Made by a program: the position numbers and the translations under genes
Notes under the pieces: model-generated
What the model was told of the DNA's origin: nothing
The model's database searches: none
What the model saw: only the letters and a program-made list of their open reading frames with translations
Part shown: positions 9,731 through 63,505 of the stretch, piece after piece
Numbering within the stretch: position 1 is the first letter of the stretch
Layout of the letters: each line of letters starts with the position of its first letter
Assembly: GCF_021502675.1 (NCBI RefSeq)
Contig: NZ_JAKFHA010000026.1
Location: 1 to 64,000, forward strand
DNA length: 64,000 bases
Direction: 5' to 3'
DNA from: Yinghuangia soli
Lineage (GTDB): Bacteria > Actinomycetota > Actinomycetes > Streptomycetales > Streptomycetaceae

Positions 9731-9810
9731 GGCCGGTGAATTCCGGTGAATCCCAGGGAACTTGAGGGAATGCGCGGGAACACGCAGGAACGTGCGGGAG
9801 TCCGGCGGAA
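9731..9810. repeat. 10-bp-phased degenerate array (8 units)
   Basis: Eight consecutive 10-base blocks end in ggtgaa, ggtgaa, agggaa, agggaa, cgggaa, aggaa, gggag and cggaa. The period is exactly one helical turn, so the motif always faces the same side of the DNA. It sits upstream of the 9070-9687 gene. Confidence 0.7.
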
Positions 9811-9825
9811 CGCGGGCGGAAACGG

Positions 9826-13877: not shown

Positions 13878-13954
13878 GAGTCGCAGACCGGCTGGAGAGC
13901 CGCTGCAGACTCGCTGCAGAGCCGCTCCGGACCCGCTGCAGACTCGCCGCAGAC
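13878..13954. repeat. 11-bp-phased degenerate array (7 units)
   Basis: Seven consecutive 11-base units approximate YCGCTGCAGAS: gagtcgcagac, cggctggagag, ccgctgcagac, tcgctgcagag, ccgctccggac, ccgctgcagac, tcgccgcagac. It lies 63-139 bases upstream of the start of the leftward 13066-13815 gene. Confidence 0.75.
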
Positions 13955-13958
13955 CAAA

Positions 13959-14853: not shown

Positions 14854-17409
14854 GTGCCCGGCAAGAACCTGACGCGCGACGAGGCCCGCGAACGGGCCCG
14901 GACGATCGGCGTCGAGGCGTACGACATCACCCTCGATCTGACCACCGGGCCCACGACGTTCCGGTCCGAGACGGTGATCCGGTTCGGCTGCACCGAACCC
15001 GGCACCTCGACCTTCGTCGACCTGCTCGCCCCCGAGGTGGCCGAGGTCCGCCTCAACGACCGGGTGCTCGACCCCGCCGAGGTCTTCGACGGCACCCGCA
15101 TCGCCCTGGACGGCCTGGCCGCGGAGAACGAGCTGCGCGTGGTGGCCTCGTGCGCGTACAGCCGCACGGGGCAGGGCCTGCACCGCTTCGAGGACCCCGC
15201 GGACGGCGGCGTGTACACGTACACGCACTTCGAGCCCGCGGACGCCCGGCGGCTCTACGCCAACTTCGAACAGCCGGACCTGAAGGCCTCGTTCACCTTC
15301 ACGGTGACCGCTCCCGAGGAGTGGACCGTGGTCTCCAACGCCGCCGAGGCGGTCCGCGAGCCCGCCGGTGCCGGCGCTGCCACGTGGCGCTTCGAGCCGA
15401 CCAAGCGCATCTCGACCTACATCACCGCGCTGGCGGCCGGCACGTACCACGTGGTGCGCGCCGTATACGAGGGCGACGGAGTCGTCATCCCGCTCGGGCT
15501 GCTGTGCCGCAAGTCGCTGGCCGAGCACCTGGACGCCGACCGCCTGCTCGCGCAGACCAAGGCCGGCTTCGCGTTCTTCCACCGCGCCGACCGCTTCGCG
15601 CTGCCCTACCCGTTCGGCAAGTACGACCAGGTCTTCGTGCCCGAGTACAACATCGGCGCGATGGAGAACCCGGGCTGCGTGACCTTCCGCGACGAGTACA
15701 TCTTCCGCTCGAAGGTCACCGAGGCGTCCTACGAGGGCCGCGCCAACACCGTGCTGCACGAGATGGCGCACATGTGGTTCGGCGACCTGGTCACCATGAA
15801 GTGGTGGGACGACCTGTGGCTCAAGGAGTCGTTCGCCGACTACATGGGCACCGCGGCGGTCGCCGAGGCCACCGAGTACGAGGACTCATGGGTGTCCTTC
15901 GCGATCCGCCGCAAGGCCTGGGCGTACCGCCAGGACCAGCAGCCCACCACGCACCCGATCGTCGCGGACATCCGCGACCTCGAGGACGCGATGCTGAACT
16001 TCGACGGCATCACCTATGCCAAGGGTGCCTCGGTGCTCAAGCAGCTGGTGGCGTACGTCGGCGCCGAGCACTTCTACGCGGGCGCGCGCCGCTACTTCGC
16101 GGCGCACGCGTACGGCAACACCGGCCTCGTCGACCTGCTCTCCGCGCTGGAGGAGGAGAGCGGGCGCGACCTGTCCACGTGGTCGAAGGCCTGGCTGGAG
16201 ACCACCGGCATGAACCGGCTGGTGCCCGAGGTCGCGGTCGGCGCGGACGGCGCGGTCGCCGGCTTCGCGGTCCGGCAGGAAGGCGAGCCGCTGCGGCCGC
16301 ACCGCATCGCGATCGGCTGCTACGACGACGACGGCAGCGGCAAGCTGGTGCGCACCCGCCGGGTCGAGGTCGACGTCGTCGGCGCCCGCACCGAAGTGCC
16401 GGAGCTGGCCGGCGGGCCGCGCCCCGCGCTGATCCTGCTCAACGACGACGACCTCACCTACTGCAAGATCGCCTTCGACGAGGTCTCCACCGCCACCATC
16501 GGCGAGCGCCTCTCCGACGTGCAGGACCCGCTGGCCCGCGCGCTCATCTGGTCGGCCATGTGGAACCTCGCCCGCGACGCGGAGCTGCCCGCCCGGGAGT
16601 TCATCGCGCTGGTGCTGCGGCACGCGGCCCGCGAGTCGCGCATCGCGGTGGTCCAGATGGTCCTGGAGCAGGCCGAGGCGGCACTGCACCACTACGCCGC
16701 ACCGGACTGGCACGCCGCCGGGCAGGCCGAACTGTCCGCGGGCGCGCTGCGCGAGCTGCGCGCGGCGGCCCCGGGCAGCGACCACCAGCTGGCCTGGGCG
16801 CGCTGCTTCGGCCGCACCGCGGCCGGCGACGAGCAGCTCGCGCTGCTGCACGGCCTGGTGTCCGGCACGGAGTCGGTGCCCGGCCTGGACGTCGACAAGG
16901 AGCTGTCCTGGCTGTTCGCCGAGACGCTCACGGTGACCGGCGCCGGGACGAAGGCCGACCTGGACGCGCTGCTCGCCGCGGACGAGACCGCCGCCGGCCG
17001 CCAGCACTACACGGCCTGCCGGGCCGCGGTGGACACCACCGCCAACAAGGAGCGCGCCTGGCGTTCCGTGGTGGAGTCCGACGACCTCCCCAATGCGATG
17101 GTCGACGCGGTCATCCGCGGCTTCGACCGGACCATGGACCCCAAGAACCTCGCGCCGTTCACCGAGCCGTACTTCGCGGCCCTGGACCGGATCTGGTCGG
17201 AGCGCTCGATCGAGATCGCCCGGCGCATCGTGGTCGGCCTCTACCCGATGGGGGACGTGTCCGCCGAGCTGCTGCGGCGTACCGACGACTGGCTCGCCGA
17301 CGACGGCCGGGCGCCCGCGCTGCGCCGCCTGGTGCTGGAGCGCCGGGACGACGCGGCCCGGGCGCTCAAGGCCCGCGCCGCGGACGCCCGCGCGGCCGCC
17401 GCCGGCTGA
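14854..17409 (+). CDS. pepN: aminopeptidase N (M1 zinc metallopeptidase), copy 1
   Basis: 851-residue cytoplasmic M1 peptidase removing N-terminal residues from peptides. The exopeptidase motif GAMEN (VPEYNIGAMENPG) and zinc site HEMAHMWFGDLV followed by WLKESFADY are intact. The C-terminal ERAP1-like helical domain is complete. The GTG start begins the conserved PGKNLTRDEARERA. A near-identical-length paralogue follows 51 bases downstream in the same orientation, so they are probably cotranscribed. Confidence 0.95.
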   Translation: MPGKNLTRDEARERARTIGVEAYDITLDLTTGPTTFRSETVIRFGCTEPGTSTFVDLLAPEVAEVRLNDRVLDPAEVFDGTRIALDGLAAENELRVVASCAYSRTGQGLHRFEDPADGGVYTYTHFEPADARRLYANFEQPDLKASFTFTVTAPEEWTVVSNAAEAVREPAGAGAATWRFEPTKRISTYITALAAGTYHVVRAVYEGDGVVIPLGLLCRKSLAEHLDADRLLAQTKAGFAFFHRADRFALPYPFGKYDQVFVPEYNIGAMENPGCVTFRDEYIFRSKVTEASYEGRANTVLHEMAHMWFGDLVTMKWWDDLWLKESFADYMGTAAVAEATEYEDSWVSFAIRRKAWAYRQDQQPTTHPIVADIRDLEDAMLNFDGITYAKGASVLKQLVAYVGAEHFYAGARRYFAAHAYGNTGLVDLLSALEEESGRDLSTWSKAWLETTGMNRLVPEVAVGADGAVAGFAVRQEGEPLRPHRIAIGCYDDDGSGKLVRTRRVEVDVVGARTEVPELAGGPRPALILLNDDDLTYCKIAFDEVSTATIGERLSDVQDPLARALIWSAMWNLARDAELPAREFIALVLRHAARESRIAVVQMVLEQAEAALHHYAAPDWHAAGQAELSAGALRELRAAAPGSDHQLAWARCFGRTAAGDEQLALLHGLVSGTESVPGLDVDKELSWLFAETLTVTGAGTKADLDALLAADETAAGRQHYTACRAAVDTTANKERAWRSVVESDDLPNAMVDAVIRGFDRTMDPKNLAPFTEPYFAALDRIWSERSIEIARRIVVGLYPMGDVSAELLRRTDDWLADDGRAPALRRLVLERRDDAARALKARAADARAAAAG

Positions 17410-17460
17410 CCCCGCAGACCTCTTCGCCCCGAACCACCCAACGCAAAGGAGACGACCGGC

Positions 17461-20016
17461 GTGCCCGGTACCAACCTCACCCGTGACGAGGCCCGCGAGC
17501 GGGCCCGGATCCTCACCGTCGACAGCTACGACATCGCCCTCGACCTGACCGGCACCGGACCGACGTTCGCCTCCGAGACCACGCTGCGCTTCTCGTGCGC
17601 CGAGCCGGGTGCCGCGACGTTCGTGGACCTGGTGGCGCCGTCCGTCTCCGCGATCACCCTGAACGGCGTGGCGCTGGACCCGGAGAAGGTGTACGCGGAC
17701 AGCCGTATCCAGCTGGACGGGCTGGCCGCGCAGAACGAGTTGCGCGTGGTCGCGGCCTGCGCGTACATGAACACCGGCGAGGGCCTGCACCGCTTCCTCG
17801 ACCCGGTCGACGGCAAGACCTACCTGTACACGCAGTTCGAGGTGGCGGACGCCCGCCGCGTCTTCGCGAACTTCGAGCAGCCGGACCTGAAGGCGACGTT
17901 CGCGTTCACCGTCACCGCCCCGGCCGACTGGCAGGTGGTGAGCAACTCGCCGACCCCCGAGGCGGTCCCGGCGGTGGGCTGCGACGGCGCCGCGGTGTGG
18001 GCGTTCGCGGCCACCCCGCGGATCTCCACCTACATCACCGCGCTGGTCGCGGGCCACTACCACGCGGTGCACGACAGCTACACGGCCGCGGACGGCACGG
18101 TCGTCCCGCTGGGCGTGTTCTGCCGCGCGTCGCTCGCCGAATTCCTGGACGCCGACAACATCTTCGACGTCACCAAGCAGGGCTTCGACTACTTCCTGGA
18201 GCAGTTCGACTTCCCGTACCCGTTCGCGAAGTACGACCAGCTCTTCGTGCCGGAGTACAACGCGGGCGCGATGGAGAACGCGGGCTGCGTGACGATCCTG
18301 GAGGACTACGTCTTCCGGTCCAAGGTCACCGACGCGTCCTACGAGGTGCGCGCCGAGACCATCCTGCACGAGCTCGCGCACATGTGGTTCGGCGACCTGG
18401 TCACCATGCAGTGGTGGGACGACCTGTGGCTGAACGAGTCGTTCGCGACGTACGCCTCGATCCGCTGCCAGGCCGAGGTCACCCGCTGGACGCAGGCCTG
18501 GGCGACGTTCGGCAACCGCATGAAGACCTGGGCGTACCGGCAGGACCAGCTGCCGTCCACGCACCCGATCTTCGCGGACATCCGGGACCTGGAGGACGTC
18601 GAGGTCAACTTCGACGGCATCACCTACGCCAAGGGCGCCTCGGTGCTCAAGCAGCTCGTCGCCTACGTGGGCAGCGAGCAGTTCATGTCCGGCGTGCGCA
18701 CCTACTTCAAGCGCCACGCGTGGGGCAACAGCACGCTGGCCGACCTGCTGACCGCACTGGAGGAGACCTCCGGGCGCGACCTGTCGGCGTGGTCCGCGGC
18801 GTGGCTGCAGACCGCGGGCATCAACACCGTGCGCCCCGAGATCGCGGTCGACGAGTCCGGCACGATCACCTCGTTCGCGGTGCTGCAGGAGGCGCCCGAG
18901 GCGTGGCCGACGATCCGCACGCACCGCATGGCGATCGGCTTCTACAACCGCACCTCCGAGGGCCTGGTGCGCTCGCACCGGGTCGAGCTGGACGTGTCGG
19001 GGCCGCGCACCGAGGTCACCGAACTGGTCGGCCGCGCCCGTCCGGACGTCGTGCTGCTCAACGACGACGACCTGACGTACTGCAAGATCCGCCTCGACCC
19101 GCACTCGCTCGGCGTCGTCACCTCGGCCATCGGCGAGTTCGCCGACCCGCTGCCGCGCGCGCTGTGCTGGGCGGCAGCGTGGGACATGACGCGCGATGCG
19201 GAGATGGCGGCGCGCGACTACCTGACCCTGGTGCTGTCCGGCATCGGGCAGGAGAAGGACATCAACATCGTCGGGTCGCTGCACCGCCAGCTGATCAGCG
19301 CGCTGGAGCTGTTCGCCGACCCGGCGTGGCGCCCGGAGGGCCTGGCCCGCCTCGCCGAGGCGGCGGTCGGGCACCTGCGCACCGCGGCGCCGGGCAGCGA
19401 CCACCAGCTCGCCTGGGCCCGCTGCCTGTCCTCGGTCGCCGTCGCGGACGACCAGATCGCGCTGCTCCAGGGCCTGCTCGCGGGCACCGAGACCATCGAG
19501 GGGCTGGCGGTGGACACCGACCTGCGCTGGGCGTTCCTGCAGCGCCTGGTCGCGGTCGGCGCGGCCGGCACGCCGGAGATCGACGCCGAGAAGGCCCGCG
19601 ACGACACCGCGGCGGGCGCCCGGCACGCGGCGTCCTGCGTGGCGGCCCGTCCGACGCGCGAGGCCAAGGACGAGGCCTGGGCGCAGGTCGTGGAGTCCGA
19701 CGCGCTGCCCAACGCCACGCAGGCGGCGGTGATCGGCGGGTTCGTGCAGACCGGCCAGCGCGAGCTGCTGACCGCCTACACGGACCGGTACTTCGCGGCG
19801 ATCGCGGGCGTGTGGGAGTCGCGCACCAACGAGATCGCGCAGCAGATCGTGCTGGGCTTGTACCCGTCGATCCAGGTCTCCCAGGACACCCTGGACAAGA
19901 CGGACGCGTGGCTGGCCACCGCCGAACCGGCGCCCGCGCTGCGCCGCCTGGTGGTGGAGAGCCGCGACGGCGTGGCCCGGGCGCTGCGCGCGCAGGCCAA
20001 GGACCGGGGCAAGTAG
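17461..20016 (+). CDS. pepN: aminopeptidase N (M1 zinc metallopeptidase), copy 2
   Basis: 851 residues, the same length as the upstream copy, with intact GAMEN (VPEYNAGAMENAG) and HELAHMWFGDLV...WLNESFATY zinc and catalytic motifs. The two copies share the N-terminal PGxNLTRDEARERAR but differ at many positions in the middle and C-terminal domains, so this is an old tandem duplication rather than an assembly repeat. The second copy is closer to the usual family pattern (WLNES). It starts at a GTG with AAAGGAGACGACC upstream. Different peptide specificities are likely but unproven. Confidence 0.95.
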   Translation: MPGTNLTRDEARERARILTVDSYDIALDLTGTGPTFASETTLRFSCAEPGAATFVDLVAPSVSAITLNGVALDPEKVYADSRIQLDGLAAQNELRVVAACAYMNTGEGLHRFLDPVDGKTYLYTQFEVADARRVFANFEQPDLKATFAFTVTAPADWQVVSNSPTPEAVPAVGCDGAAVWAFAATPRISTYITALVAGHYHAVHDSYTAADGTVVPLGVFCRASLAEFLDADNIFDVTKQGFDYFLEQFDFPYPFAKYDQLFVPEYNAGAMENAGCVTILEDYVFRSKVTDASYEVRAETILHELAHMWFGDLVTMQWWDDLWLNESFATYASIRCQAEVTRWTQAWATFGNRMKTWAYRQDQLPSTHPIFADIRDLEDVEVNFDGITYAKGASVLKQLVAYVGSEQFMSGVRTYFKRHAWGNSTLADLLTALEETSGRDLSAWSAAWLQTAGINTVRPEIAVDESGTITSFAVLQEAPEAWPTIRTHRMAIGFYNRTSEGLVRSHRVELDVSGPRTEVTELVGRARPDVVLLNDDDLTYCKIRLDPHSLGVVTSAIGEFADPLPRALCWAAAWDMTRDAEMAARDYLTLVLSGIGQEKDINIVGSLHRQLISALELFADPAWRPEGLARLAEAAVGHLRTAAPGSDHQLAWARCLSSVAVADDQIALLQGLLAGTETIEGLAVDTDLRWAFLQRLVAVGAAGTPEIDAEKARDDTAAGARHAASCVAARPTREAKDEAWAQVVESDALPNATQAAVIGGFVQTGQRELLTAYTDRYFAAIAGVWESRTNEIAQQIVLGLYPSIQVSQDTLDKTDAWLATAEPAPALRRLVVESRDGVARALRAQAKDRGK

Positions 20017-30357: not shown

Positions 30358-30756
30358 GTGAGTGATTCGACGGCGGACCAGCCCCCTTCCTTCTACGACG
30401 CGGTCGGCGGCGAGGAGACCTTCGCCAAGCTCGTGCACCGCTTCTACGAAGGCGTGCGGACCGACCCGCTGCTGCGTCCGATGTACCCGGAAGAGGATCT
30501 GGCGGGCGCCGAGGACCGGCTGCGGCTGTTCCTCATGCAGTACTGGGGCGGGCCGCGGACCTACAGCGACGAGCGTGGCCATCCCCGGCTGCGCATGCGG
30601 CATGCGCCGTTCGCGGTCACCCCGGCCGCGCGCGACGCCTGGCTGCGGCACATGCACGCGGCGGTGGAGGAGCTCGCGCTGGAGGACGCGTACCGCGACC
30701 AGCTGTGGGACTACCTCGTGTACGCCGCCGAGTCGATGGTGAACCAGGCGGAGTAG
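30358..30756 (+). CDS. glbO: truncated hemoglobin, group II (GlbO-like)
   Basis: 132-residue 2-over-2 globin binding haem and oxygen. It has the start [22 protein letters not shown], the YWGG segment before the E-F region, and the proximal His region MRHAPFAV. Group II globins are linked to oxygen or nitric oxide chemistry and, in mycobacteria, to membrane respiration. The GTG start at 30358 overlaps no upstream gene. MscS upstream and GH13 downstream give no clear functional link. Confidence 0.9.
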
Positions 30757-30800
30757 CGCGCCTCCGCCGCCCGGTGCGGTTCGCTCGGGCGCGGGCGGCT

Positions 30801-30870
30801 CCGGTTCAGTCGGGTTCAGCCGGGTTCGGTTTCCTTCGATTCGGTTCGGTGCGGTCCGCTTCGGGAACGA
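30801..30870. repeat. 10-bp-phased degenerate array (7 units)
   Basis: Seven consecutive 10-base blocks: ccggttcagt, cgggttcagc, cgggttcggt, ttccttcgat, tcggttcggt, gcggtccgct, tcgggaacga. It lies 57-126 bases upstream of the GH13 start codon. Confidence 0.65.
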
Positions 30871-30926
30871 TCCGTACGGCTCAGAAGGCCCGGACGGCTC
30901 GGACGGCTGCGGAGGTGGCGACCCAC

Positions 30927-32540
30927 GTGGACGGCGGCGAATGGTGGCGGGACGCGGTCTTCTACCAGGTGTACCCGCGCAGTTTCGCGGACGCGGACGG
31001 CGACGGCGTCGGTGATCTGCCCGGTGTGGTCGAGCGGCTGCCGCATCTGCGCGACCTGGGCGTCGACGCGCTGTGGCTGAGCCCCTTCTACCCGTCGCCG
31101 ATGGCCGACGCCGGCTACGACGTCGCCGATCCGCGCGGCGTGGACCCGCTGTTCGGCACGCTCGCCGACTTCGACCTGCTGGTGGACCGGGCGCATGCAC
31201 TCGGGCTGCGGGTGGTCGTCGACGTCGTGCCCAACCACACCTCGCACGAGCACGCGTGGTTCCGGGCGGCGCTGGCCGCCGCGCCCGGTTCGCCGGAGCG
31301 GGCCCGCTACCTGTTCCGCGACGGCCGCGGCCCGGGCGGGGACGCCCCTCCCAACGACTGGACGTCGCAGTTCGGCGGCGCCGCGTGGACGCGCACCGCC
31401 GATGCGGACGGCCGTCCCGGGCAGTGGTACCTGCACCTGTACGCGCCCGAGCAGCCCGACTTGAACTGGCGCAACCTCGAAGTGCGCGCCGAGTACTTGT
31501 CGATCCTGCGGCACTGGCTCGACCGCGGCGTGGACGGGTTCCGCATCGACGTGGCGCACGGCCTGGTCAAGGCGGTCGGCCTGCCGGACGCGGGCGAGAT
31601 CCCGCAGGGCTGGGAAGGCCGCATGAACCACCGGCTGCCGTACTGGGACCAGCCCGAGGTGCACGACATCTACCGCGGCTGGCGGCAGGTCCTCGACGCG
31701 TACCCGGGCGACCGGATCGCGGTCGCCGAGGCGTGGGTCCCGCAGCCGGAGCGGCTGGCCGCGTACACCCGGCCCGACGAGCTGCATCAGGCGTTCAACT
31801 TCCCCTATCTGATGGCCGGTTGGGATGCGGAGCGGATCCGGTCGGTGGTGGACTCGTCGCTCGCCGCGGCGGACAAGACCGGTGCCCCGCCGACGTGGGT
31901 GCTGGCCAACCACGACGTGGTGCGGGCGCCGACCCGGTTGGGCGGGCTGGACCGGGCGCTTGCCGCGCTGCTCGTCGAACTCGCGCTGCCCGGCTCGGTG
32001 TACCTCTACCAGGGCGAGGAACTGGGCCTGGAGGAAGTACTCGACCTGCCCGACGAGTTGCGCCAGGACCCGGTGTTCCTGCGGTCCGGCGGCAAGGTGC
32101 GGGGCCGGGACGGGTGCCGGGTGCCGCTGCCGTGGTCGGACGACGGGCCCGCGCTGGGGTTCTCGCCGAGCGGGCGCTCCTGGCTGCCGCAGCCGGCCGC
32201 CTGGCGGGCGCTGAACGCGGCGTCGCAGGCCGCCGATCCGGCGTCCACGCTGCAGTTCTACCGGCGGGCGCTGCGGCTGCGCCGCGAACACCCGGCGCTG
32301 GGCCGCGGGACCGGGCCGGCGGAGCGGGCGGGGCGCCTGACGTGGATGCGGACGCCGCCGGGGACACTGGCGTTCGTCCGCGATCCCGGGTTCGTGTGCA
32401 CCGCGAATCCGACGGACGCGCCGGTGGAGTACGGGCCGATCGGGGCGCTGCTGCTGGCGAGCGGGCCGGTGGACGCGAGCCCGGACGGCGGGCACGTGCT
32501 GCCCGCGCACACCACGGCGTGGTGGAGCGTGGGCGGCTGA
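30927..32540 (+). CDS. GH13 alpha-glucosidase (oligo-1,6-glucosidase type)
   Basis: About 537-residue alpha-amylase-superfamily enzyme that hydrolyses short alpha-glucosides in the cytoplasm. It shows all landmark regions: VVVDVVPNHTS, the nucleophile in GFRIDVAHG, the acid/base in AVAEAWV and the third acid in WVLANHDVVR. The sequence FYQVYPRSFADADGDGVGDLPG is typical of the glucosidase/trehalulose branch. There is no signal peptide. I favour the GTG at 30927 because GGAGG at 30911-30915 precedes it; a GTG at 30915 is also in frame but would overlap that site. With malQ at 20442-22658 it suggests maltodextrin use, though the genes are not linked. Confidence 0.87.
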   Translation: MDGGEWWRDAVFYQVYPRSFADADGDGVGDLPGVVERLPHLRDLGVDALWLSPFYPSPMADAGYDVADPRGVDPLFGTLADFDLLVDRAHALGLRVVVDVVPNHTSHEHAWFRAALAAAPGSPERARYLFRDGRGPGGDAPPNDWTSQFGGAAWTRTADADGRPGQWYLHLYAPEQPDLNWRNLEVRAEYLSILRHWLDRGVDGFRIDVAHGLVKAVGLPDAGEIPQGWEGRMNHRLPYWDQPEVHDIYRGWRQVLDAYPGDRIAVAEAWVPQPERLAAYTRPDELHQAFNFPYLMAGWDAERIRSVVDSSLAAADKTGAPPTWVLANHDVVRAPTRLGGLDRALAALLVELALPGSVYLYQGEELGLEEVLDLPDELRQDPVFLRSGGKVRGRDGCRVPLPWSDDGPALGFSPSGRSWLPQPAAWRALNAASQAADPASTLQFYRRALRLRREHPALGRGTGPAERAGRLTWMRTPPGTLAFVRDPGFVCTANPTDAPVEYGPIGALLLASGPVDASPDGGHVLPAHTTAWWSVGG

Positions 32541-35549: not shown

Positions 35550-35815
35550 TGTCCGCGGTAGGGAGCCCCTGCCCTAGAGCGGGGCGGCGTCTCCTTCCGT
35601 ATCGGCCGCAATCCGGTGTGCCCCTTGGCTCTACGGCGAGGGCCTCCTCTCCCGTCTCCCCCTCCGCAGCGCGGCGTGCCCCGTCGCCCTCTCGCGCGGC
35701 CGCGCCTCCTTGAGCCCCTCCGCAGCCCGGCGTGCCCCATGGCCCTATGGCGACGCCTCGTCTCCCTCCTCCCCCTCCGCAGCGCGGCGCGGCCTCTGGC
35801 CCTATGCTCGGCCGC
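35550..35815. repeat. 57-bp imperfect tandem repeat, about 4-5 copies
   Basis: A recurring block (cctccgcagc, gcggcgtgcccc, then ggccctatg-like sequence) recurs with its ggygtgcccc landmark starting at 35615, 35673, 35729 and 35786, spacings 58, 56 and 57. A weaker copy begins near 35550. The array ends about 35 bases before the start of the PQQ-propeller gene. No reading frame in it is convincing. Confidence 0.7.
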
Positions 35816-54689: not shown

Positions 54690-54886
54690 TGGCGACCGTC
54701 ATCGCGTCGGGGCGGCCCTCCGCGGCCGCCCCGGTCCGCCCCGAACTCGTCCGCCTGCTGCCGCCGTTCACAGAGCACCTCGGATGGTGCCCGGTATGCG
54801 TGTCGCATACGCCCCGCCTCGGCCGTCTGACGGCCGCCGGATGGTGCTGCCCGGTTTGCGGGGAGGTGACCCCATGTGGCCTGTGA
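54686..54886 (+). CDS. small zinc-ribbon protein
   Basis: 66 residues (GTG at 54686 or ATG at 54689). Two CPVC knuckles (GWCPVCVSH and CCPVCGEV) 16 residues apart make a likely zinc ribbon. It is embedded in the operon between the recT accessory gene and a membrane protein. Function unknown. Confidence 0.6.
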   Translation: MMATVIASGRPSAAAPVRPELVRLLPPFTEHLGWCPVCVSHTPRLGRLTAAGWCCPVCGEVTPCGL

Positions 54887-55161
54887 TCCTCATGGCCTGC
54901 GGGCTCGCCTCGCTCGCGCTCCTGGCCTGGATGCCGGTCTGCGCCGCGGACTACCAGCGCCGCGAGAAGGCCGCCAACCCGGAGCCGGCCGAACTGCCGC
55001 CCGACGTCAGCCCCATGTCGCCGGAGCGCTGCGAGCTGTGCACGCCGCACGGACGGCACGCCCGCATCGAGCTGTGCCCGGCCTGCGCGCTGCTCGCCGC
55101 CGTGTTCCCCGAACATACGGCCCCGCCACGGCCCGACAGCGCCCCGGACGGCCCGTCATGA
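54874..55161 (+). CDS. small membrane protein with cytoplasmic Cys motif
   Basis: 95 residues. One N-terminal membrane helix (about 3-24) and a soluble tail with CELC and CPAC pairs. Ribosome site GGGAGG lies inside the preceding gene, which it overlaps by 13 bases. Unknown function; a membrane-tethered zinc knuckle is unusual. Confidence 0.55.
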   Translation: MWPVILMACGLASLALLAWMPVCAADYQRREKAANPEPAELPPDVSPMSPERCELCTPHGRHARIELCPACALLAAVFPEHTAPPRPDSAPDGPS

Positions 55162-55556
55162 CCGGCCGGTACCGCGTCGACACCACCGATACGACGCTTG
55201 GCGACATCGACGTGATCGCCGTGGAACGCGTCGTCAACGGCGACAACGGGCCGCACCCGACGCTGACCGACGCCGAACAGCAGTTCGCCGCGGTCGCGAT
55301 GTTCCGGCGCGGCGCCGGACCGCGGACGGTTGCCGAGGCAGTCGGCGCTACGGAGCGGGTGGTCCAGCGGTGGCGCCGTGAGGCCGGCCTCGTGCCGCAG
55401 GCCCGCGGGGAGCCGCCGCCGTGCGGGACGAGGTCCGCGTACCAGCGGCACCTGCGCCGCGGCGAGACGCCCGATCACGCGTGCCGTGAGGCGAACAACG
55501 CTGCGCACCGACGGCTGCTCGCGACCGGCAGCACGCTCGCCGGAGGCCGGGCATGA
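55158..55556 (+). CDS. helix-turn-helix protein with C-terminal Cys/His motif
   Basis: 132 residues. Residues 48-75 form a helix-turn-helix (RRGAGPRTVAEAVGATERVVQRWRREAGLVP). The C-terminal CGTRSAYQRHLRRGETPDHACREANNAAHRR is a motif seen in many actinophage small proteins and may bind zinc. Likely a transcriptional regulator or DNA-binding accessory of the element. Confidence 0.65.
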   Translation: MTGRYRVDTTDTTLGDIDVIAVERVVNGDNGPHPTLTDAEQQFAAVAMFRRGAGPRTVAEAVGATERVVQRWRREAGLVPQARGEPPPCGTRSAYQRHLRRGETPDHACREANNAAHRRLLATGSTLAGGRA

Positions 55557-55849
55557 GAGTGCTCATGTGCGCCTGGTGCCGCGCAATCGCAGGCGTGCGC
55601 CTGTACGCGGTGGGGGCGCGCTGCCCCGCACACACGCCCGCGGCGCTCGCTGGCCTTCCGGAGCCGGGCCGATCGGTGTACTGCCCGCCACGGATCTGCT
55701 GGTGCGGCACCTGCCCGCACGCGGACCAGCTCGTTCCCGCCGCTCCGTCCTCGACGGCGATCGACGCGGCGCACGTCATCAGCGGCAAGCGCCGGTCGAC
55801 GTACCAGCGAGTACGGATCCTGCGCGACGCAACCCCGGCAACTACCTGA
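55553..55849 (+). CDS. small Cys-rich protein
   Basis: 98 residues, start overlapping the previous stop (ATGA). Cys pattern CAWC ... C ... CWCGTC suggests two zinc sites. The C-terminal third is basic. Not recognised. Confidence 0.55.
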   Translation: MRVLMCAWCRAIAGVRLYAVGARCPAHTPAALAGLPEPGRSVYCPPRICWCGTCPHADQLVPAAPSSTAIDAAHVISGKRRSTYQRVRILRDATPATT

Positions 55850-55929
55850 ACTCCGGCGCCCGACCGCGACTCCCCGGCGGTCGGGCGCCGGCACCAACCC
55901 CGAGCAGCACGACCGAGAGAGAGATCCGA

Positions 55930-56982
55930 GTGAGCCACGAGGCGGTGACCTGGGCGATGCGCGACGCGCCCATGCTGCGCACCGAGGCCGGCAAGCCGGA
56001 CCACACGGCGCGGCATGTGCTCCAGGTGCTCGCTGAGTTCGCGCAGAAAGACGGCTCCGAGGCTCGCCCTTCGACCGTGACGATCCGGTATCGCACCGGT
56101 CTGGACCGCAGCACGGTGCAGCGCGCTCTCCGGCGCCTGGAGGAGGCCCGGCTCATTGCCGCGGTCGGCATCGTGAACGGCTGCACGAACTACACGCTCG
56201 CGCTTTCGCAGGTCCGTCCGGCGTCCGACTGGGACGAGTTGGTCGAAGAGGAGGAGCGTCGTCGAGCGGCCGCTGCGGAGCGCAAGCGGAAGTCCCGCGC
56301 AGGCGCTGTCACGGACTCTGCGTCCGTGACGGTCACATACGCAGAGTGTGTGACCGAACCCGATGTCACGCCCTCAGAGTTCGTGACCGAGGGGGAAGTC
56401 ACAGACTCTGCGCCCGGACGTCACGCACTTGAAGTGTGTGACACCCCCGATGTCACACACTCTGCGCCTGGCCGTCACACACTCAACGCGGCCGTACCCG
56501 TTATAGACCCGTCCCTAAAAGAAGAACCGTCCGTAGACCCGTCTGCTGCGGACGCACTTCCCGGGATCGACGCTCCGCCCGCTGAGGCCCCCGTCGCGGA
56601 CAAGCCGCGCCGCGCGCAGAAGGCCGCCGCGCCGACGCCCAACCGGCACGCCATCGCCGACGAGCTCACCTCGGCGTTCTGGGACGTCCACGGCGCCGGC
56701 CGCGCGCAGTCCTTCATCGCGACCCGCGGCGTCATCCGAACCGCCATCACCAACGGCGTGGCCCGCGACACCCTCGCCTGCGCGCTCGACCTCATCGCCC
56801 GCGAAGGCCGGTCGATCTCCGGCGGAACCATCCAAACCGCCCTCGGCCAACTTCAGCACCCGCAGCAGCACCGCGACCGGCCCGTTGCCGGCGGCCTCAC
56901 GCAGGCGCAGTGGGACGCCGCGTACGCCCGCGCGCAGGCCCGCGACGCCGCCGAGGCCGCAGCACACCAGGAGGCATCGTGA
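55930..56982 (+). CDS. winged-helix replication initiator with internal iterons (lambda O-like)
   Basis: 350 residues. N-terminal winged helix-turn-helix (about 22-90; ARPSTVTIRYRTGLDRSTVQRALRRLEEARLI), a low-complexity linker (about 125-235) and a C-terminal helical domain (about 235-310). The linker is encoded by at least eight copies of a GTCACNNACTCTGCG-like repeat, so the origin appears to lie inside the gene, as in lambda gene O. The next gene resembles a helicase loader, giving an O-P order. Start GTG 55930 after gagagagaga. Function is inferred from architecture and context, not from strong sequence identity. Confidence 0.7.
   Translation: MSHEAVTWAMRDAPMLRTEAGKPDHTARHVLQVLAEFAQKDGSEARPSTVTIRYRTGLDRSTVQRALRRLEEARLIAAVGIVNGCTNYTLALSQVRPASDWDELVEEEERRRAAAAERKRKSRAGAVTDSASVTVTYAECVTEPDVTPSEFVTEGEVTDSAPGRHALEVCDTPDVTHSAPGRHTLNAAVPVIDPSLKEEPSVDPSAADALPGIDAPPAEAPVADKPRRAQKAAAPTPNRHAIADELTSAFWDVHGAGRAQSFIATRGVIRTAITNGVARDTLACALDLIAREGRSISGGTIQTALGQLQHPQQHRDRPVAGGLTQAQWDAAYARAQARDAAEAAAHQEAS
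56308..56530 (+). repeat. iteron array and AT-richer stretch, candidate replication origin
   Basis: Repeats of GTCACNNACTCTGCG or its complement: 56308-56322 (+), 56340-56354 (-), 56364-56378 (+, degenerate), 56373-56387 (-), 56398-56412 (+), 56420-56430 (+, half) opposed to 56431-56442 (-, half), 56452-56466 (+), 56474-56488 (+, degenerate). They are followed at about 56499-56530 by the locally AT-rich ttatagacccgtccctaaaa and aagaa. Iterons plus an AT-rich unwinding region define theta-type origins. Confidence 0.75.
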
Positions 56983-57389
56983 ACTCCACCGAGACCATCC
57001 AACTCGTCCGCTACGTCGCCGCGCTGTTCCCTGCGGTCCGAACCGATCCGCACACCGCCGACGCGTGGCACGACGTGCTTCACCGCTACCCGATCGAGCA
57101 GGCCCGCGCCGCAGCCGTCCGCGTGTCCGAGCGGCAGACGTTCTGCTCGCTTGCCGACATCGTCGCCGAGCTGAAACGCACCCGCGCCGTAGCACTCGAC
57201 GGATTCCGGTACGTGCCCGTCCCCGGCGACGACGACCCGACCGTCTATCTCGCCGCGCGTCGCGAGCAGCTCGCCGCGGTCGCCGCCGGCCACCGCGCCG
57301 CCGACCCCGAAGCGCTGACCGCGGCCCGCCCGCGGCCCGTCGCCGAACTCACCGCCGCCACCGGCCGCGACATCCCGGAGGAACTGTGA
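56979..57389 (+). CDS. probable helicase loader/inhibitor (G39P-like)
   Basis: 136 residues. The start TETIQLVRYVAALFPA... WHDVLHRYPIEQARAAAVRVS... CSLADIVAEL follows the pattern of the phage SPP1 G39P family (loader and inhibitor of the replicative helicase), a short helical domain with a disordered C-terminus. It would deliver host DnaB to the origin inside the preceding gene, as lambda P does. GTG start overlapping the initiator stop. Assignment rests on the N-terminal pattern and position. Confidence 0.6.
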   Translation: MNSTETIQLVRYVAALFPAVRTDPHTADAWHDVLHRYPIEQARAAAVRVSERQTFCSLADIVAELKRTRAVALDGFRYVPVPGDDDPTVYLAARREQLAAVAAGHRAADPEALTAARPRPVAELTAATGRDIPEEL

Positions 57390-57817
57390 CCGCCATCGCG
57401 CCGCCCGCCGTTGCCGCCGCCATCCGCGGCGCCCTCACTGACCGCCTGCGTGCGTTCCGAGTACCCCGAGCCGAGCACCTGGCCACCGTTCTCGCCGACA
57501 CCGCGATCCGCACCATTCGCAGCTACGGCTGGGAAATCCGGCCCGAACCCGCGCGGCGCTCGGACATCCCGCGGATCACCCACCGCCGCCGCCAGGTCCT
57601 CGTATTGGTTGCCGCGGGCCTGACGTCGGAGCAGGCCGCCCAGCACCTGGACCTCACCGACCGCGGCATCCAGTCCCACATCCGCGAGCTGCTGGTGATC
57701 CTCGGCGCGCAATCCCGCACCGAACTCGCGGTGCGGGCCATCGCGTACGGACTCGTCACACCCGACGAGGCGCTCGCCGCGGCTGACGCAACGCGTACTC
57801 GGAGCCCTGCGGCGTGA
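57386..57817 (+). CDS. LuxR-type helix-turn-helix protein
   Basis: 143 residues. Residues 72-125 form a GerE/LuxR-like DNA-binding domain (THRRRQVLVLVAAGLTSEQAAQHLDLTDRGIQSHIRELLVILGAQSRTELAVRA). No receiver or ligand domain. Probably a regulator of the later operon genes. GTGA overlap with the loader gene. Confidence 0.72.
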   Translation: MTAIAPPAVAAAIRGALTDRLRAFRVPRAEHLATVLADTAIRTIRSYGWEIRPEPARRSDIPRITHRRRQVLVLVAAGLTSEQAAQHLDLTDRGIQSHIRELLVILGAQSRTELAVRAIAYGLVTPDEALAAADATRTRSPAA

Positions 57818-58023
57818 CCAGCCGGACTGTCTGCCGCGGCTGCCGGCGCCCGCTGCGTGCCGCCGCGTCGGTCGCGCTCGGCTACGGCCGCAAGTGCGCC
57901 ACCGAGCTCGGCATCCTCCAGCCGCGCCAGCCCCGCGCGCCGCACCGCGCCGACGACCGCCAGGCCGAGCAGCACCACCCCGGACAGACCGCCATCCCGA
58001 TCCAGATGGAGATCCCGACATGA
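57814..58023 (+). CDS. small Cys protein, DUF6011-like
   Basis: 69 residues. RTVCRGCRRPLRAAASVALGYGRKCATEL matches the DUF6011 pattern (CxxC, later GxxC) common in actinophages and mobile elements. Function unknown. 4-base overlap at both ends. Confidence 0.65.
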   Translation: MTSRTVCRGCRRPLRAAASVALGYGRKCATELGILQPRQPRAPHRADDRQAEQHHPGQTAIPIQMEIPT

Positions 58024-58196
58024 CCACCCCTCCCGATCTCGCCGCCTCACTGCCGCAGATCGCCGTGGACTGCCCCACCTGCGGATCCGCCGCCGGCCAG
58101 TTGTGCACCAGCCACAGCGGCACGCGCACCCGCCGCCACGACACCCACCAGGCCCGCCGCAAGGCCTGGAACGCGACCGCGAAGGACACCGCCTGA
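58020..58196 (+). CDS. small zinc-finger-like protein
   Basis: 58 residues: [12 protein letters not shown] then [19 protein letters not shown]. The CxxC...C...H pattern with a basic helix resembles small phage zinc fingers thought to bind DNA. Confidence 0.65.
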
Positions 58197-58405
58197 TGGC
58201 CGGCCTTCCCTGCCCCTCCTGCGGCAGCCAGAAGCAGCCGCAGCAGTACCTCTGCCGCGACTGCTGGGGACTGCTCCCGCTGCCCACCCGCAAGGCCCTC
58301 AACCGGCGCGACACCGCAGCGTTCGCCCGGCTCCTGGACCTCCGCGCCCAGATCACGGCTGGAACCCCCCTCGCCGACATCACCACCCTGAAGGAGACCC
58401 GCTAG
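58196..58405 (+). CDS. small zinc-ribbon protein
   Basis: 69 residues: [24 protein letters not shown] is a clear zinc-ribbon knuckle, followed by a helix. ATGA overlap with the preceding gene and a shared base with the SSB GTG. Confidence 0.65.
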
Positions 58406-58905
58406 TGGCCAACGAAACGACCATCACCGTGGTCGGGAACCTCACCGCCGATCCCGAGCTCCGCTTCACCCCGTCCGGCGCGGCCGTCGCAAACTTCACC
58501 GTGGCGTCCACGCCGCGGACCTTCGACCGGCAGGCGAACGAATGGCGAGACGGCGACGCGCTGTTCCTCCGCTGCTCGGTCTGGCGCCAGGCCGCCGGGC
58601 ACGTTGCCGAGTCCCTCGCCAAGGGCATGCGCGTGATCGTGCAGGGCCGGCTGCGGCAGCGGTCGTACGAGAAGGACGGCGCGACGCGCACGACGTACGA
58701 ACTCGAGGTGGACGAGATCGGCCCGTCGCTGACGTTCGCGACGGCGCGCGTTGAGCGGGCGTCTCGCGGCGCGAACTCCGGTGCGGGTGGCCAGCCCCCG
58801 CGGGAGCCCCAGCGAGGCCGTCAGGCGCCCGCCGAGGACCCGTGGGCGGGCAGCCAGGGCCGCGGTGGATGGGGGCAGCAGGGCGGATCTGAACCGCCTT
58901 TCTGA
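58405..58905 (+). CDS. ssb: element-encoded single-stranded DNA-binding protein
   Basis: 166 residues. OB fold from [32 protein letters not shown] to [15 protein letters not shown]-terminal Gly/Gln-rich linker ending in a short acidic tip EPPF (host SSB tips end in DDDIPF/DEEPPF). The tip suggests that it can recruit host replication proteins, unlike the chromosomal ssbB in this window. Together with RecT and the initiator it completes a self-contained replication-recombination module. Confidence 0.93.
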
Positions 58906-58963
58906 TCTTGCTCGCCAGCCGGGCGCCGGCCAACCCGGCGCCCGGCCACACCCAGGAGGACCC

Positions 58964-59182
58964 ATGCCCCGCCCCAAACTCACCGAACTGGAGCGCGCCG
59001 TCCGCGACCTGATCACGCACGGCGTCATCGACGGCATCCCCGTCAGCGAACTCGCCGTGACCGTCGTAGCCCGATGCCAGGGCCCGAGCCCGATCACGAC
59101 CAAACCGAACGCGCTGCCCGAGGACGCCCGGCGTATCGCCCGACGTTTTGATCGCGGCGCGCCGCCGCCGCCCGGCGCCTGA
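58964..59182 (+). CDS. small hypothetical protein
   Basis: 72 residues, ATG with aggagga upstream. Helical start (LTELERAVRDLITHGVIDGIPVSELAVTVVARC). No known motif. Confidence 0.5.
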   Translation: MPRPKLTELERAVRDLITHGVIDGIPVSELAVTVVARCQGPSPITTKPNALPEDARRIARRFDRGAPPPPGA

Positions 59183-59198
59183 CACCACAGGAGATCCG

Positions 59199-59558
59199 AT
59201 GACCGACACCGACACCCTCCGCGCTGCCGCCGCCCGACTCCGCAACCTCGCCCGCGACGCCACAACGGACGGCGCAGCCCCGTGGCGCTACCGCGACCGC
59301 ACGCCCACGACCGGCACCCTCCTCTACGCCGACCGCGGCCACCCGATCATCCGCGGCGGCTCAACCGGCCGCGGCGACGGGCCGCGCGTCCACCGCGCCA
59401 CCGGCATCTGGATCGCCACCCTCGACCCCACCCTCGGCCTGCTGATCGCCGCCTGGCTGGACCACGACGCCGACACCGGCCACCCCAGCGAGGCCGCGCT
59501 CCACGTCGCACGTGCGGTCCTCGACGACAGCCACATCAACCCGGAGACAACGCGATGA
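59199..59558 (+). CDS. hypothetical protein
   Basis: 119 residues, ATG with aggag upstream. Alpha/beta look with GIWIATLDPTLGLLIAAWLDHDADTG near 65-90; resembles small actinophage proteins that recur in operons like this. Function unknown. Confidence 0.55.
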   Translation: MTDTDTLRAAAARLRNLARDATTDGAAPWRYRDRTPTTGTLLYADRGHPIIRGGSTGRGDGPRVHRATGIWIATLDPTLGLLIAAWLDHDADTGHPSEAALHVARAVLDDSHINPETTR

Positions 59559-59989
59559 CCGATCCCCGCCACACCGCGCACCTCGCCGTCGAAGTCCGTT
59601 TCGAGGGCGACTACTACGGCCCCGATGAGCTTGTCGCCCTGTGCGACGGCTGGATCGGTGCCGCGTTCGAGGACCGCGACAACCTCCGCGGCTACACGCT
59701 GACCGGCAGCGTCAACCCCGGGCACGACACGGCACCGAACCTCGACGCCGATCCGGCCGCCCTCGCCTGGGCCCGCGGCAAGATCCAGCACCACATCGAC
59801 AAGCTCAACCGCTTCCGCGAGAACGCCGCCGAACGCGGCGACTCTGCCGCAGCCGAGCAGTGGCGACGCATCGCCGGATACATGAGCCGCTACCTCATCG
59901 CCGGGGGCAGCTGCACCATCGGCAGCTTCGACGAACGCCTCCCCGACTGGGCCGTCCTGGCCGACAACACCGAGGACACCCCGCGATGA
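59555..59989 (+). CDS. hypothetical protein
   Basis: 144 residues, ATGA overlap at both ends. Soluble and acidic, with VEVRFEGDYYGPDELVALCDGWI and a later helix IQHHIDKLNRFRENAAERGD. No family recognised. Confidence 0.55.
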   Translation: MTDPRHTAHLAVEVRFEGDYYGPDELVALCDGWIGAAFEDRDNLRGYTLTGSVNPGHDTAPNLDADPAALAWARGKIQHHIDKLNRFRENAAERGDSAAAEQWRRIAGYMSRYLIAGGSCTIGSFDERLPDWAVLADNTEDTPR

Positions 59990-60951
59990 CCGAGCCGTAC
60001 ACCTACGCCGACACCCCCGACGGGTGCGAACTCAGCTTCCAGGCCTACCCGCCTGAGGGCGTGTCCCCGGCGGTCCTCGTCCACGCCTGCGAGGACGGCG
60101 TCCGCGTCCCCCTCGACGAGCTGCACGACGTGATCGCGGGCCTGCTCGCCATAGCCGCCGCCGCACAGGGCCGCACCTGGACGAGCGCGCTTGCCCAGGC
60201 CCGCGACGACACGGCCACCCTCGCCAACATCACCGCGGGCGAGACCCCGCAGCGGCTGGCCGCACTTGCCCGCACGCACTACGAGCACCTGCCGCTGCTG
60301 CTGGCCCTCGCCGAGGCGTACACCGGCCAGGACGCGCCGCTGTGGCACCAGTACCGACAAGTCCAGGCCGAACGCGACACCGCGCGGTTCAACAACGGGG
60401 CCCTCCAGGCAGCCACCCGGCTCGCCCAGGAGGAGGCCGACAAGCTTCGCGCCGAGGCTGCAGAGCTGCGCACGCGCATGCACAAGCTGGAGGACGTCCG
60501 GACCGAGGCCCTCGCCGACGCCGAGCAACTGCGCGCCCGGCTCGTCGCCGTCGAAACGATCGCCCGAGCGGGCGGTGGGACCGTGCGGTCCGACATCCTC
60601 GCCGTCCTCGACGACGACACCGACGCAACGGAGTTCGCGACCGGCGGCATCGTCACCAACCCGGCCGCCATCGGCCCGGGCGACAACGGCGGATGCATCA
60701 TCCCCGCCCGCAAGGCGACCCCGCGCGGCCCCGGCATGACCGCCGACCAGTGGAACACGCATCACCCCGTCGGTACCCCGGTGCACGCCTGGCTCGGCCG
60801 CCGCGACGAAGCGCCCCTCGTAACCCGCACCCGCAGCGACGCCTGGAACCTCGGCCACGGCGAACCGGTCGTGTCCGTCGACGGCTACGCGGGCGGCATC
60901 GCGCTGACCCACATCGAGCCCCGCCCCGACGACACCCCGGAGCAGCCGTGA
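59986..60951 (+). CDS. hypothetical protein with central coiled coil
   Basis: 321 residues. Residues about 105-200 form a probable coiled coil (QEEADKLRAEAAELRTRMHKLEDVRTEAL), flanked by an N-terminal domain and a C-terminal segment (GPGMTADQWNTHHPVGTPVHAWLGRRDEAPLVTRTRSDAW) typical of small ligand or nucleic acid-binding modules. Not recognised. Confidence 0.55.
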   Translation: MTEPYTYADTPDGCELSFQAYPPEGVSPAVLVHACEDGVRVPLDELHDVIAGLLAIAAAAQGRTWTSALAQARDDTATLANITAGETPQRLAALARTHYEHLPLLLALAEAYTGQDAPLWHQYRQVQAERDTARFNNGALQAATRLAQEEADKLRAEAAELRTRMHKLEDVRTEALADAEQLRARLVAVETIARAGGGTVRSDILAVLDDDTDATEFATGGIVTNPAAIGPGDNGGCIIPARKATPRGPGMTADQWNTHHPVGTPVHAWLGRRDEAPLVTRTRSDAWNLGHGEPVVSVDGYAGGIALTHIEPRPDDTPEQP

Positions 60952-61283
60952 ACAACCGCCAAGCAGCCGAGGCGAACATCCGCGACGGATTCGCGCGCCT
61001 GGCCCGCATCCCGCTCGGCGACGTCCGAACCGAAGTCGTCGTTGCCGGATCCAGCCTGGCCACCGCCTACTTCACCGCCGCCATTGCGCAGGGCCTGGCC
61101 GACGTGGCCGACGCCATCCGCGAGAGCAGCGACGCCCGCCCGCGCCTCGTCTCGATCGCCCAGCTCGCCGACGCGCTCGGCGACCAACTCCCCGGCGACG
61201 GCTGGCACCTCGCGCACGCCATCAAACGCCTCGCCGACGGCACCGTCACACCCGACGAGATCGCCGCCGAGACCGACGGCTGA
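60948..61283 (+). CDS. small helical protein
   Basis: 111 residues, GTG overlapping the previous stop. Mostly helical (VVVAGSSLATAYFTAAIAQGLADVADAIRESSD). Last gene of the long overlapping run before a hairpin. Confidence 0.5.
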   Translation: MNNRQAAEANIRDGFARLARIPLGDVRTEVVVAGSSLATAYFTAAIAQGLADVADAIRESSDARPRLVSIAQLADALGDQLPGDGWHLAHAIKRLADGTVTPDEIAAETDG

Positions 61284-61292
61284 ACGCAGAGC

Positions 61293-61320
61293 GGCCCGCC
61301 CCTTGCACCAGGGGCGGGCC
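61293..61320 (+). terminator. hairpin after the long operon
   Basis: ggcccgcccc (61293-61302) pairs perfectly with ggggcgggcc (61311-61320), loop ttgcacca, ten bases after the stop at 61283. Confidence 0.6.
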
Positions 61321-61388
61321 GACCAGGTGGACCACGACGCCGGAACGCACGGTCCCCCGCAGCGTACGACCAGGGAGCGACACACCCC

Positions 61389-62066
61389 ATGCACCCGCAC
61401 CCCGCCGACACCATCGCCGAGTTCTGGCCCGACCTGCTCGCCGCCACCGAACCCGGCACCCGCCGCCGCACCAACAGCCTGGCCCGCCCGATCGCCGAGG
61501 CCATCGTCGAGCGCGACCGGATCGAGCGCGCCGAACGCTCCACGCTTGCCCGCGGCGTCGCGCCGGCACCCGCCACAGTCCACGTCATCGACGTCATCCG
61601 CGACGTCACCGCCGCCGTCCGCTACGTGGAGGCAGAGACCCGCGAAGCGCTCCGTCTGCCCTACCTGGTGCCCGCCCCGTCAGCCGACACCGACACCCCG
61701 TCAGCCTGCCGCCGCATCCTCGGCTACCGACGCATGCTCACCGTCGACCAGGCCGCGTGGATCGAGACCCAACTCCGGCCCGCAGCACGCGCCGTCCTGA
61801 CGGCCGTCGGACTCGACGAGCGGCCCGTCACGCTCCTTCAGCCCTGCCCGTGGTGCGGAGGGCCGCTCACCGTCCACGCCGTCACCCCCGTCGGCCCGCA
61901 CGTCCTCTGCTCCGGTGACGCCCCCTGCGACGCCGTCTCGTCGACCTGGCTCTACGGCCGGCCGCTGTGGCACCTCGACGACCTCGGCCGACTCGGCGCC
62001 CTGCTGCACGTCCCCACCAGGTCGGCCCGGCAGCCGCTCAAGGTCAACCTGCACAAGGCCGCCTGA
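61389..62066 (+). CDS. hypothetical protein with C-terminal zinc motif
   Basis: 225 residues. Helical N-terminal half; C-terminal CPWCGGPLTVHAVTPVGPHVLCSGDAPC is a zinc-ribbon-like knuckle followed by a Trp-rich segment (WLYGRPLWHLDDLGRL). ATG with aggga upstream. Similar plan to small DNA-binding proteins of actinobacterial elements, but no family is assigned. Confidence 0.6.
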   Translation: MHPHPADTIAEFWPDLLAATEPGTRRRTNSLARPIAEAIVERDRIERAERSTLARGVAPAPATVHVIDVIRDVTAAVRYVEAETREALRLPYLVPAPSADTDTPSACRRILGYRRMLTVDQAAWIETQLRPAARAVLTAVGLDERPVTLLQPCPWCGGPLTVHAVTPVGPHVLCSGDAPCDAVSSTWLYGRPLWHLDDLGRLGALLHVPTRSARQPLKVNLHKAA

Positions 62067-62153
62067 CACCCCGTCATTTGCCTTCACCGTGTAGGCTGCT
62101 CCACGGCTTGCCGCTCCAGCAGCGTCTGAACGGCCGCCCCCACAAACGAAAAC

Positions 62154-62188
62154 GGCCCCGGCCGGTGCGTCAACACCGAGCCGGGGCC
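62154..62188 (+). terminator. hairpin before the DUF2637 gene
   Basis: ggccccggccggtg (62154-62167) pairs with caccg-a-gccggggcc (62174-62188) with one bulged base. It lies 32 bases before the DUF2637 start, so it may be an attenuator or leader structure rather than an end. Confidence 0.45.
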
Positions 62189-62219
62189 TGACCACAACAG
62201 ACCCTCTGGAGGTCTCACC

Positions 62220-63119
62220 GTGGCTACCGCGCATCCTAAAGCGCCCGCGATCGGCGCGCGCATGCCGTGGCTCGTCCGCGCCGCCTGGTACCTCGTCCTC
62301 GCGATGATGCTGACCGCCGCCGCATGGTCCATCGCCCACCGGCTCATGGCCTGGGGCATGAGGCCGGAACTTGCCTGGGGCATCTCGCTGATGTTCGACG
62401 GCTCCGCGCTCGTCTGCGCCGAATACGCCCGCCGCGCCATCACCCGCGGCACCCCCGCCGGCCTCCCCCGCGCCGCCATCCTCGCGTTCGTCACCGCATC
62501 CGGCGTCATCACCTACACGCACGGCCATGCCGTCGGCGGCGTCCCGGCCGGTATCGCGTTCGCGTCCACGAGCCTGCTTGCCGAGCTGCTTTTCGAGCTG
62601 AACCGGCGCGACCTCCGCGACACCGAACGGCACGCCCGCGGCCTCGTCCCCGAGATGCTCCCCCGCATCCCGCTCGTCGCCTGGGTGATGTTCCCCGCGG
62701 AGTCCTGGCGCACCCTGCGGCGCGCGGTCGGCGCCCGCCTCGCGACCCTGGACCCGGTGTCCGCCGAGACCCCGGACGCCCCCGCGGACACCCCCGGACA
62801 TGCGAACGGGACTGTCCGCGCGGCCGTCCGGGCTGCGGCCGCAACCATGCCCGAGGCCACCGCCGAGGACATCGCCGAGAAGCTCGCCGAAGTGCGCATC
62901 GACGTGGACGCGGACACGGTCCGGACAGTCCTCGGACAGCAGGACAGCAGGTCAGTCGAAGTGACCGACCTCAGCGAGGGGACGATCAGCGCCACCGTCC
63001 GGGACTGTGTCCGGCTCGGTGTCCGCGACGTCGAGGACATTGTCCGAGCCGTCCACAAGGTGCACGGCTCCGAGGTCCCGCGCGACACCGTCACCCGCAC
63101 CCTGCGCCGCATCTCCTGA
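62220..63119 (+). CDS. DUF2637/Spd-like membrane protein
   Basis: 299 residues. Four membrane helices in the first 125 residues (WYLVLAMMLTAAAWSIAH, ISLMFDGSALVCAEYA, ILAFVTASGVITYTHG, IAFASTSLLAELLFEL) match the DUF2637 pattern found with spread (Spd) genes of Streptomyces conjugative plasmids, which aid intramycelial plasmid movement. The cytoplasmic tail has a winged-helix look (ATAEDIAEKLAEVRIDVDADTVRTVLGQ). GTG start with GGAGG. Its 3' half is dense in TGTCC/GGACA. Confidence 0.78.
   Translation: MATAHPKAPAIGARMPWLVRAAWYLVLAMMLTAAAWSIAHRLMAWGMRPELAWGISLMFDGSALVCAEYARRAITRGTPAGLPRAAILAFVTASGVITYTHGHAVGGVPAGIAFASTSLLAELLFELNRRDLRDTERHARGLVPEMLPRIPLVAWVMFPAESWRTLRRAVGARLATLDPVSAETPDAPADTPGHANGTVRAAVRAAAATMPEATAEDIAEKLAEVRIDVDADTVRTVLGQQDSRSVEVTDLSEGTISATVRDCVRLGVRDVEDIVRAVHKVHGSEVPRDTVTRTLRRIS
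62758..63045. repeat. TGTCC/GGACA cluster inside the DUF2637 gene
   Basis: I count twelve TGTCC or GGACA pentamers in 288 bases, for example at 62786, 62796, 62912, 62923, 62934, 62942, 63008, 63019 and 63041. At about 70% G+C fewer than one is expected. The same motif makes up the element operator at 51288-51311. Confidence 0.55.
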
Positions 63120-63196
63120 CCAACCGTCACCCCGCCCGGTGACGGGCCCGGCGCCACGCGCTGCCCACACCCGGGCCACCACGCCTGGAGACCCCC

Positions 63197-63505
63197 ATGC
63201 CCGACACCACCCCCATCCCCGCGCCCACCCCGATCACCGGAACCGGCGTACAGCAGGCCCCCATCCCGCCCGCGCAGGCACCCGCGTACACCGGCGCCAC
63301 CGTCGTCACCGCCGGCAGCATCTCGGCCGTCCTGCTCGGCGTCGCCGTCTGGTACGTCCTGAAGCACAAGAAGGCTGTCGGACTGCACATGCTGCTCGGC
63401 GTGTGCCTCGGCCTCGCGCTCGCCAACTCCGTCATCGGCCGCGCGCTCAATCAGGTCGTCGCGTCCCTCGTCGGCGCACTCATCGGCGTCACCGGCTCCC
63501 TGTGA
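63197..63505 (+). CDS. small Spd-like membrane protein
   Basis: 102 residues: a Pro/Thr-rich N-terminus and two membrane helices (about 37-53 and 60-82). ATG with ctggag upstream. Small two-helix proteins following DUF2637 genes are typical of spread clusters. The next gene starts inside its stop. Confidence 0.6.
   Translation: MPDTTPIPAPTPITGTGVQQAPIPPAQAPAYTGATVVTAGSISAVLLGVAVWYVLKHKKAVGLHMLLGVCLGLALANSVIGRALNQVVASLVGALIGVTGSL

Follow-up and report, generated by a model that had tools for sequence, protein, structure and literature searches.

The window, a 64,000 nt stretch of the 9.7 Mb Yinghuangia soli genome with a GC content of 72.5%, includes a same-strand gene pair encoding a truncated (bacterial-like) globin and a GH13 family glucosidase. 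The spacer between them holds a GC-rich hairpin and, immediately downstream, a short tandem array (Table 1). The more downstream of the two candidate GH13 start codons, GTG 30927, has a GGAGG motif 11 nt upstream.

Table 1. Positions in the window of the target array, its flanking features and two companion arrays
Feature	Position	Strand	Evidence or context
Truncated (bacterial-like) globin gene, upstream neighbour	30358..30756	+	PF01152, E=6e-38; gene finder
Spacer holding the target array, globin–GH13	30757..30926 (170 bp)	+	No sigma-70-type promoter or U-tract terminator by consensus scan
GC-rich hairpin just upstream of the target array	30760..30799	+	z -1.25 vs shuffles; no T-run
Target array: degenerate 10-bp tandem array, ~7 units (GGTTCRGYYG-like)	30803..30870	+	Lag-10 self-match vs shuffles; unit listing
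GH13 family glucosidase gene, downstream neighbour	30927..32540 (start GTG 30927 or GTG 30915)	+	PF00128, E=2e-101; gene finder; in-frame starts and GC3
Companion 10-bp array	9733..9811		3ʹ of a hairpin; ~45 bp from likely - strand gene start at 9687
Companion 11-bp array	13883..13955		3ʹ of a hairpin; ~67 bp from - strand gene start at 13815

Read in a 10 bp register from 30803, the units of the target array are GGTTCAGTCG, GGTTCAGCCG, GGTTCGGTTT, CCTTCGATTC, GGTTCGGTGC, GGTCCGCTTC and GGGAACGATC. The sequence matches itself at a lag of 10 at 34 of 50 positions, a score that no dinucleotide shuffle of the 170 bp spacer reached at period 10 in 20,000 trials, and that only one of 20,000 reached when all periods between 4 and 16 were allowed. 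Head-to-tail tandem units beyond chance expectation, one defining property of bacterial VNTR (minisatellite) loci, are present here. Among period-10 stretches in the window, the target ranks second, behind a stretch at 9732; for period 11, the top stretch lies at 13885. Hence, the phased 10 bp array that a sequence-only reading had placed upstream of the GH13 gene is borne out. That reading described the units as being of a GGTTCGG type: the 10 bp register stands, but a uniform motif does not, since the units are degenerate and only four of the seven begin with GGTTC. Neighbouring units have a mean identity of 0.63, and identity drops to 0.30 with increasing distance between units (order permutation p=0.03). 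This trend fits copying from neighbour to neighbour, with the caveat that the array was chosen for the similarity of its neighbouring units. In a pool of 65 arrays selected regardless of unit order, a weak test, neighbours were barely more alike than expected by chance (z 0.26 ± 0.14). The target array is a real, degenerate short tandem repeat.

Two further arrays exist elsewhere in the window, evidently those that the sequence-only reading had grouped with the target as having unrelated motifs, and the three indeed have no motif in common. The same reading stressed their equal distance to the adjacent gene. This holds roughly for the three arrays (about 45, 67 and 57 bp) but fails genome-wide, where the distance from array to gene start has a median of 128 bp and a 10th–90th percentile range of 36–513 bp; the agreement is a coincidence of three cases. 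A separate 56 bp tandem repeat of 3.4 copies lies at 35614-35806, in the spacer that precedes a + strand gene at 35900.

The globin and GH13 genes are also adjacent in both other Yinghuangia genomes, and among the loci examined outside Yinghuangia this adjacency was not found. In Y. seranimata (NZ_JASAOI010000020) the two genes are separated by a shorter spacer without an array, and the orthologous spacer of the second sister genome also has none. An operator would be expected to keep its units and their spacing at orthologous genes; the target array shows no such conservation. Both companion arrays are likewise absent from the orthologous spacers of the second sister genome. In the spacer of the 11 bp companion array, that genome shares a promoter-like sequence by the gene start (around TTTATTGGnTTATGTCAC) but not the array. 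Hence, the regulatory-looking part of this spacer lies outside the array.

How common are such arrays? We conducted a census of spacers of 66 bp or more, using a codon-usage gene finder written for this analysis, across 464 kb of the Y. soli genome and 200–400 kb of each of six relatives. In the 464 kb from Y. soli, short-period arrays were found in 42 of 259 spacers, compared with 2.6 expected from shuffles. In the six other Streptomycetaceae genomes, 7% to 27% of spacers bear arrays. Across all seven genomes, intergenic arrays with unrelated motifs exceed their frequency in shuffled sequence approximately 5- to 35-fold. Arrays were found in 3–7% of spacers in other actinobacteria (one locus sampled each), in 9/119 spacers in Cupriavidus, for which the gene finder was poorly trained, and in 0/22 spacers in the small E. 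coli sample. Some intergenic repeats in Y. soli are near-perfect, for example those at C45:54973 (15 bp) and C45:56677 (8 bp, CCCGGTTG); the near-perfect repeats, on contigs C45 and C67, are probably young members of the same array class.

The census also speaks to where arrays occur and which periods they have. Convergent spacers contain no promoters for the flanking genes, and arrays are as frequent there (26/155) as in other spacers (118/966); there is no enrichment in promoter-bearing spacers. Spacer arrays cover the whole range of periods from 5 to 16 bp. Among non-triplet periods, 10–11 bp is mildly over-represented (32/86, p=0.0016), the null being a rough one that assumes equal frequencies for nine periods; periods of 9 and 12 bp are also high, perhaps because some coding sequence was missed. 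The period is a multiple of three in 868 of 889 arrays within predicted genes, compared with 103 of 204 in spacers. This contrast is suggestive of selection purging frame-breaking repeats from genes, and only suggestive because codon structure alone favours triplet periods in genes.

These data bear on the two general explanations offered by the sequence-only reading, for which genome-wide enrichment over shuffled sequence had been set beforehand as the test. Enrichment was found, but specificity for 10–11 bp was not: all short periods are enriched. The proposal of a general process such as repeat-generating slippage is supported by the enrichment in seven Streptomycetaceae genomes and by the gain and loss of whole units described below, although its placement “in promoters” finds no support in the convergent spacers. 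The second proposal, a class of helically phased binding platforms, is not supported, given the range of periods, the broad spread of distances to gene starts and the absence of arrays from orthologous sister-genome spacers.

Turnover was assessed in a pair of close relatives, G078 and G054, that align collinearly for 193 kb with 96.1% identity, with a length change defined as 4 bp or more. Ten of 12 arrays in G078 differ in length in G054, compared with 16 of 82 control stretches lacking an array (Fisher p=3e-5). The reverse comparison, from G054 to G078, gave 8/9 arrays and 18/85 controls (p=1e-4). Length variability among close relatives, another defining property of VNTR loci, is thus found for the array class; it was seen at the relatives' arrays and not at the target. 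The changes that could be aligned involve one 9 bp unit, two 8 bp units, six 12 bp units and five 12 bp units, whole-unit gains or losses of the kind expected from slippage between repeat units. Nonetheless, some arrays found in only one of the two genomes are already degenerate, and slippage of perfect copies followed by decay since the divergence of the two genomes is therefore not the whole story. At least some of the differences must reflect the removal of older arrays or the movement of units that had already diverged, and removal of older arrays is likely to be among them. Several insertions of 107–183 bp without tandem character also distinguish spacers in this pair (G078 offsets 54993, 74665, 92917 and 110270); these could represent small repeat elements, mobile or palindromic. 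In a search of 34 relatives for an array of another genome, G084, strong matches stop at the gene border. Hence, relatives at 82–89% identity are too distant for comparison of arrays.

Canonical mismatch repair acts poorly on loops of 8–12 bp. MutS was absent from all seven genomes tested (a control search was positive in 11/14), and NucS was present in 7/7. The absence of MutS in genomes with NucS is a possible permissive factor for arrays, as a correlation that is weak for 8–12 bp loops. NucS is reported to be unable to correct indels (PMC8228993) and to have little effect on the indel rate in S. ambofaciens (PMC11109965).

What, then, is the array upstream of the GH13 gene? Very probably, it is a lineage-specific, degenerate minisatellite-like repeat that arose through slippage in a weakly constrained spacer and is now decaying, with no dedicated function. 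Most likely, a replicating or repairing strand slipped by approximately one unit in GC-rich, weakly constrained spacer DNA. Such slippage would both add and remove units, and substitutions would then erode the array. Spacers across the Streptomycetaceae would in this way be seeded with repeats of many unit lengths, which would account for the resemblance among arrays, while unit lengths not divisible by three would be removed from genes by selection. That the same process made the target array, and that this array is non-functional, are both things we infer. Besides the weak pooled test of unit order and the degenerate arrays that differ within the close pair, two observations stand against slippage: the nearest relatives, each species being represented by one genome, lack the target array altogether and so give no variation in unit number at the target itself, and generic slippage does not predict the mild excess of 10–11 bp periods.

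The 10 bp register and the position upstream of a sugar-metabolism gene could instead indicate a helically phased operator, in which a regulator of the GH13 gene would bind cooperatively to GGTTC direct repeats placed at intervals of one helical turn, 57 bp ahead of the start. Direct-repeat arrays bound by oligomeric regulators are indeed known in other bacteria. We nonetheless consider an operator very unlikely, given the absence of the array from both sister genomes despite conservation of the gene pair, a spacer in which a consensus scan found no promoter-like site, the equal abundance of the array class between convergent genes, and the lack of a motif shared by the three arrays in the window. 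The array could also be transcribed and act at the RNA level, as an attenuator or terminator between the globin and GH13 genes; a GC-rich hairpin precedes it, and this hairpin-then-array layout recurs at both companion arrays. However, compared with shuffles, no extra folding stability is seen for the hairpin (z -1.25) or the array region (z 0.55), there is no T-run and no conservation, and such an element is highly improbable.

A coding role appears just as improbable. The GH13 reading frame is open back to 30705 and contains in-frame GTG codons at 30774 and 30849, from which the array could be read as an N-terminal extension of the protein; the orthologues in both sister genomes do appear to be extended from an upstream GTG. 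Third-position GC, on the other hand, is 0.68 in the upstream extension compared with 0.94 in the gene, every 10 bp unit shifts the frame, inspection revealed no good ribosome-binding site before either GTG, and the gene finder places the limit of coding at 30915. Finally, low-complexity GC-rich DNA might produce such a pattern fortuitously: the sequence is 72% GC, and the motif consists mostly of G, T and C. As far as dinucleotide composition goes, chance is ruled out by the dinucleotide-preserving shuffles, none of 20,000 of which matched the target at period 10, and the genome-wide excess of arrays leaves chance with a negligible likelihood.

A bolder version of the slippage-derived minisatellite is a repeat-forming process that keeps remodelling the spacers of Streptomycetaceae, preferring steps of approximately one helical turn (9–12 bp) and gaining or losing units that already differ from one another; it would supply new, variable DNA to spacers and promoter-flanking regions. 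We regard this broader proposal as rather unlikely, and the preference for about one helical turn as a lead only.

The arrays described here invite comparison with known systems. Like bacterial VNTR or minisatellite loci, such as the mycobacterial MIRU-VNTR loci, they are head-to-tail, mostly intergenic and variable in length among close relatives. Unlike those loci, arrays of the Yinghuangia type have units of 8–16 bp that are strongly degenerate, with motifs unrelated from site to site, and the variation was observed in arrays of relatives and not at the target. The tandem repeats of archaeal Borgs (PMC9879509) are similarly pervasive, of independent origin and subject to fast turnover, with unit lengths that are multiples of three in genes and mostly not between genes; Borg repeats are perfect copies and A-rich, whereas the arrays here are degenerate, GC-rich and located on a bacterial chromosome. 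Phased direct-repeat operators share the spacing of approximately 10 bp upstream of a gene, but the arrays studied here lack conservation, promoter bias and a shared motif, and arrays with many other periods occur in the same genome. We found no description of Streptomyces arrays of this kind in the open-access literature searched, and the density and turnover of the array class in Streptomycetaceae are mildly new. Caution is warranted in high-GC actinomycetes, where phased intergenic repeats should not be read as operators: about one in six of the spacers sampled in Y. soli carries such an array. More broadly, short degenerate minisatellites point to a fast route of spacer divergence in genomes of this kind.

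Two other parts of the window deserve mention. Two adjacent genes at 14854-20016, of 851 aa each, are an apparent tandem gene duplication; the product of the first is an M1 aminopeptidase by Pfam. The region 54883-64000 contains approximately 17 small, tightly packed genes on the same strand, including those for an HTH_36 protein (55930-56982) and a protein with a weak, sub-cut-off match to Lar restriction alleviation (61389-62066), and resembles the early region of a prophage or integrative element.
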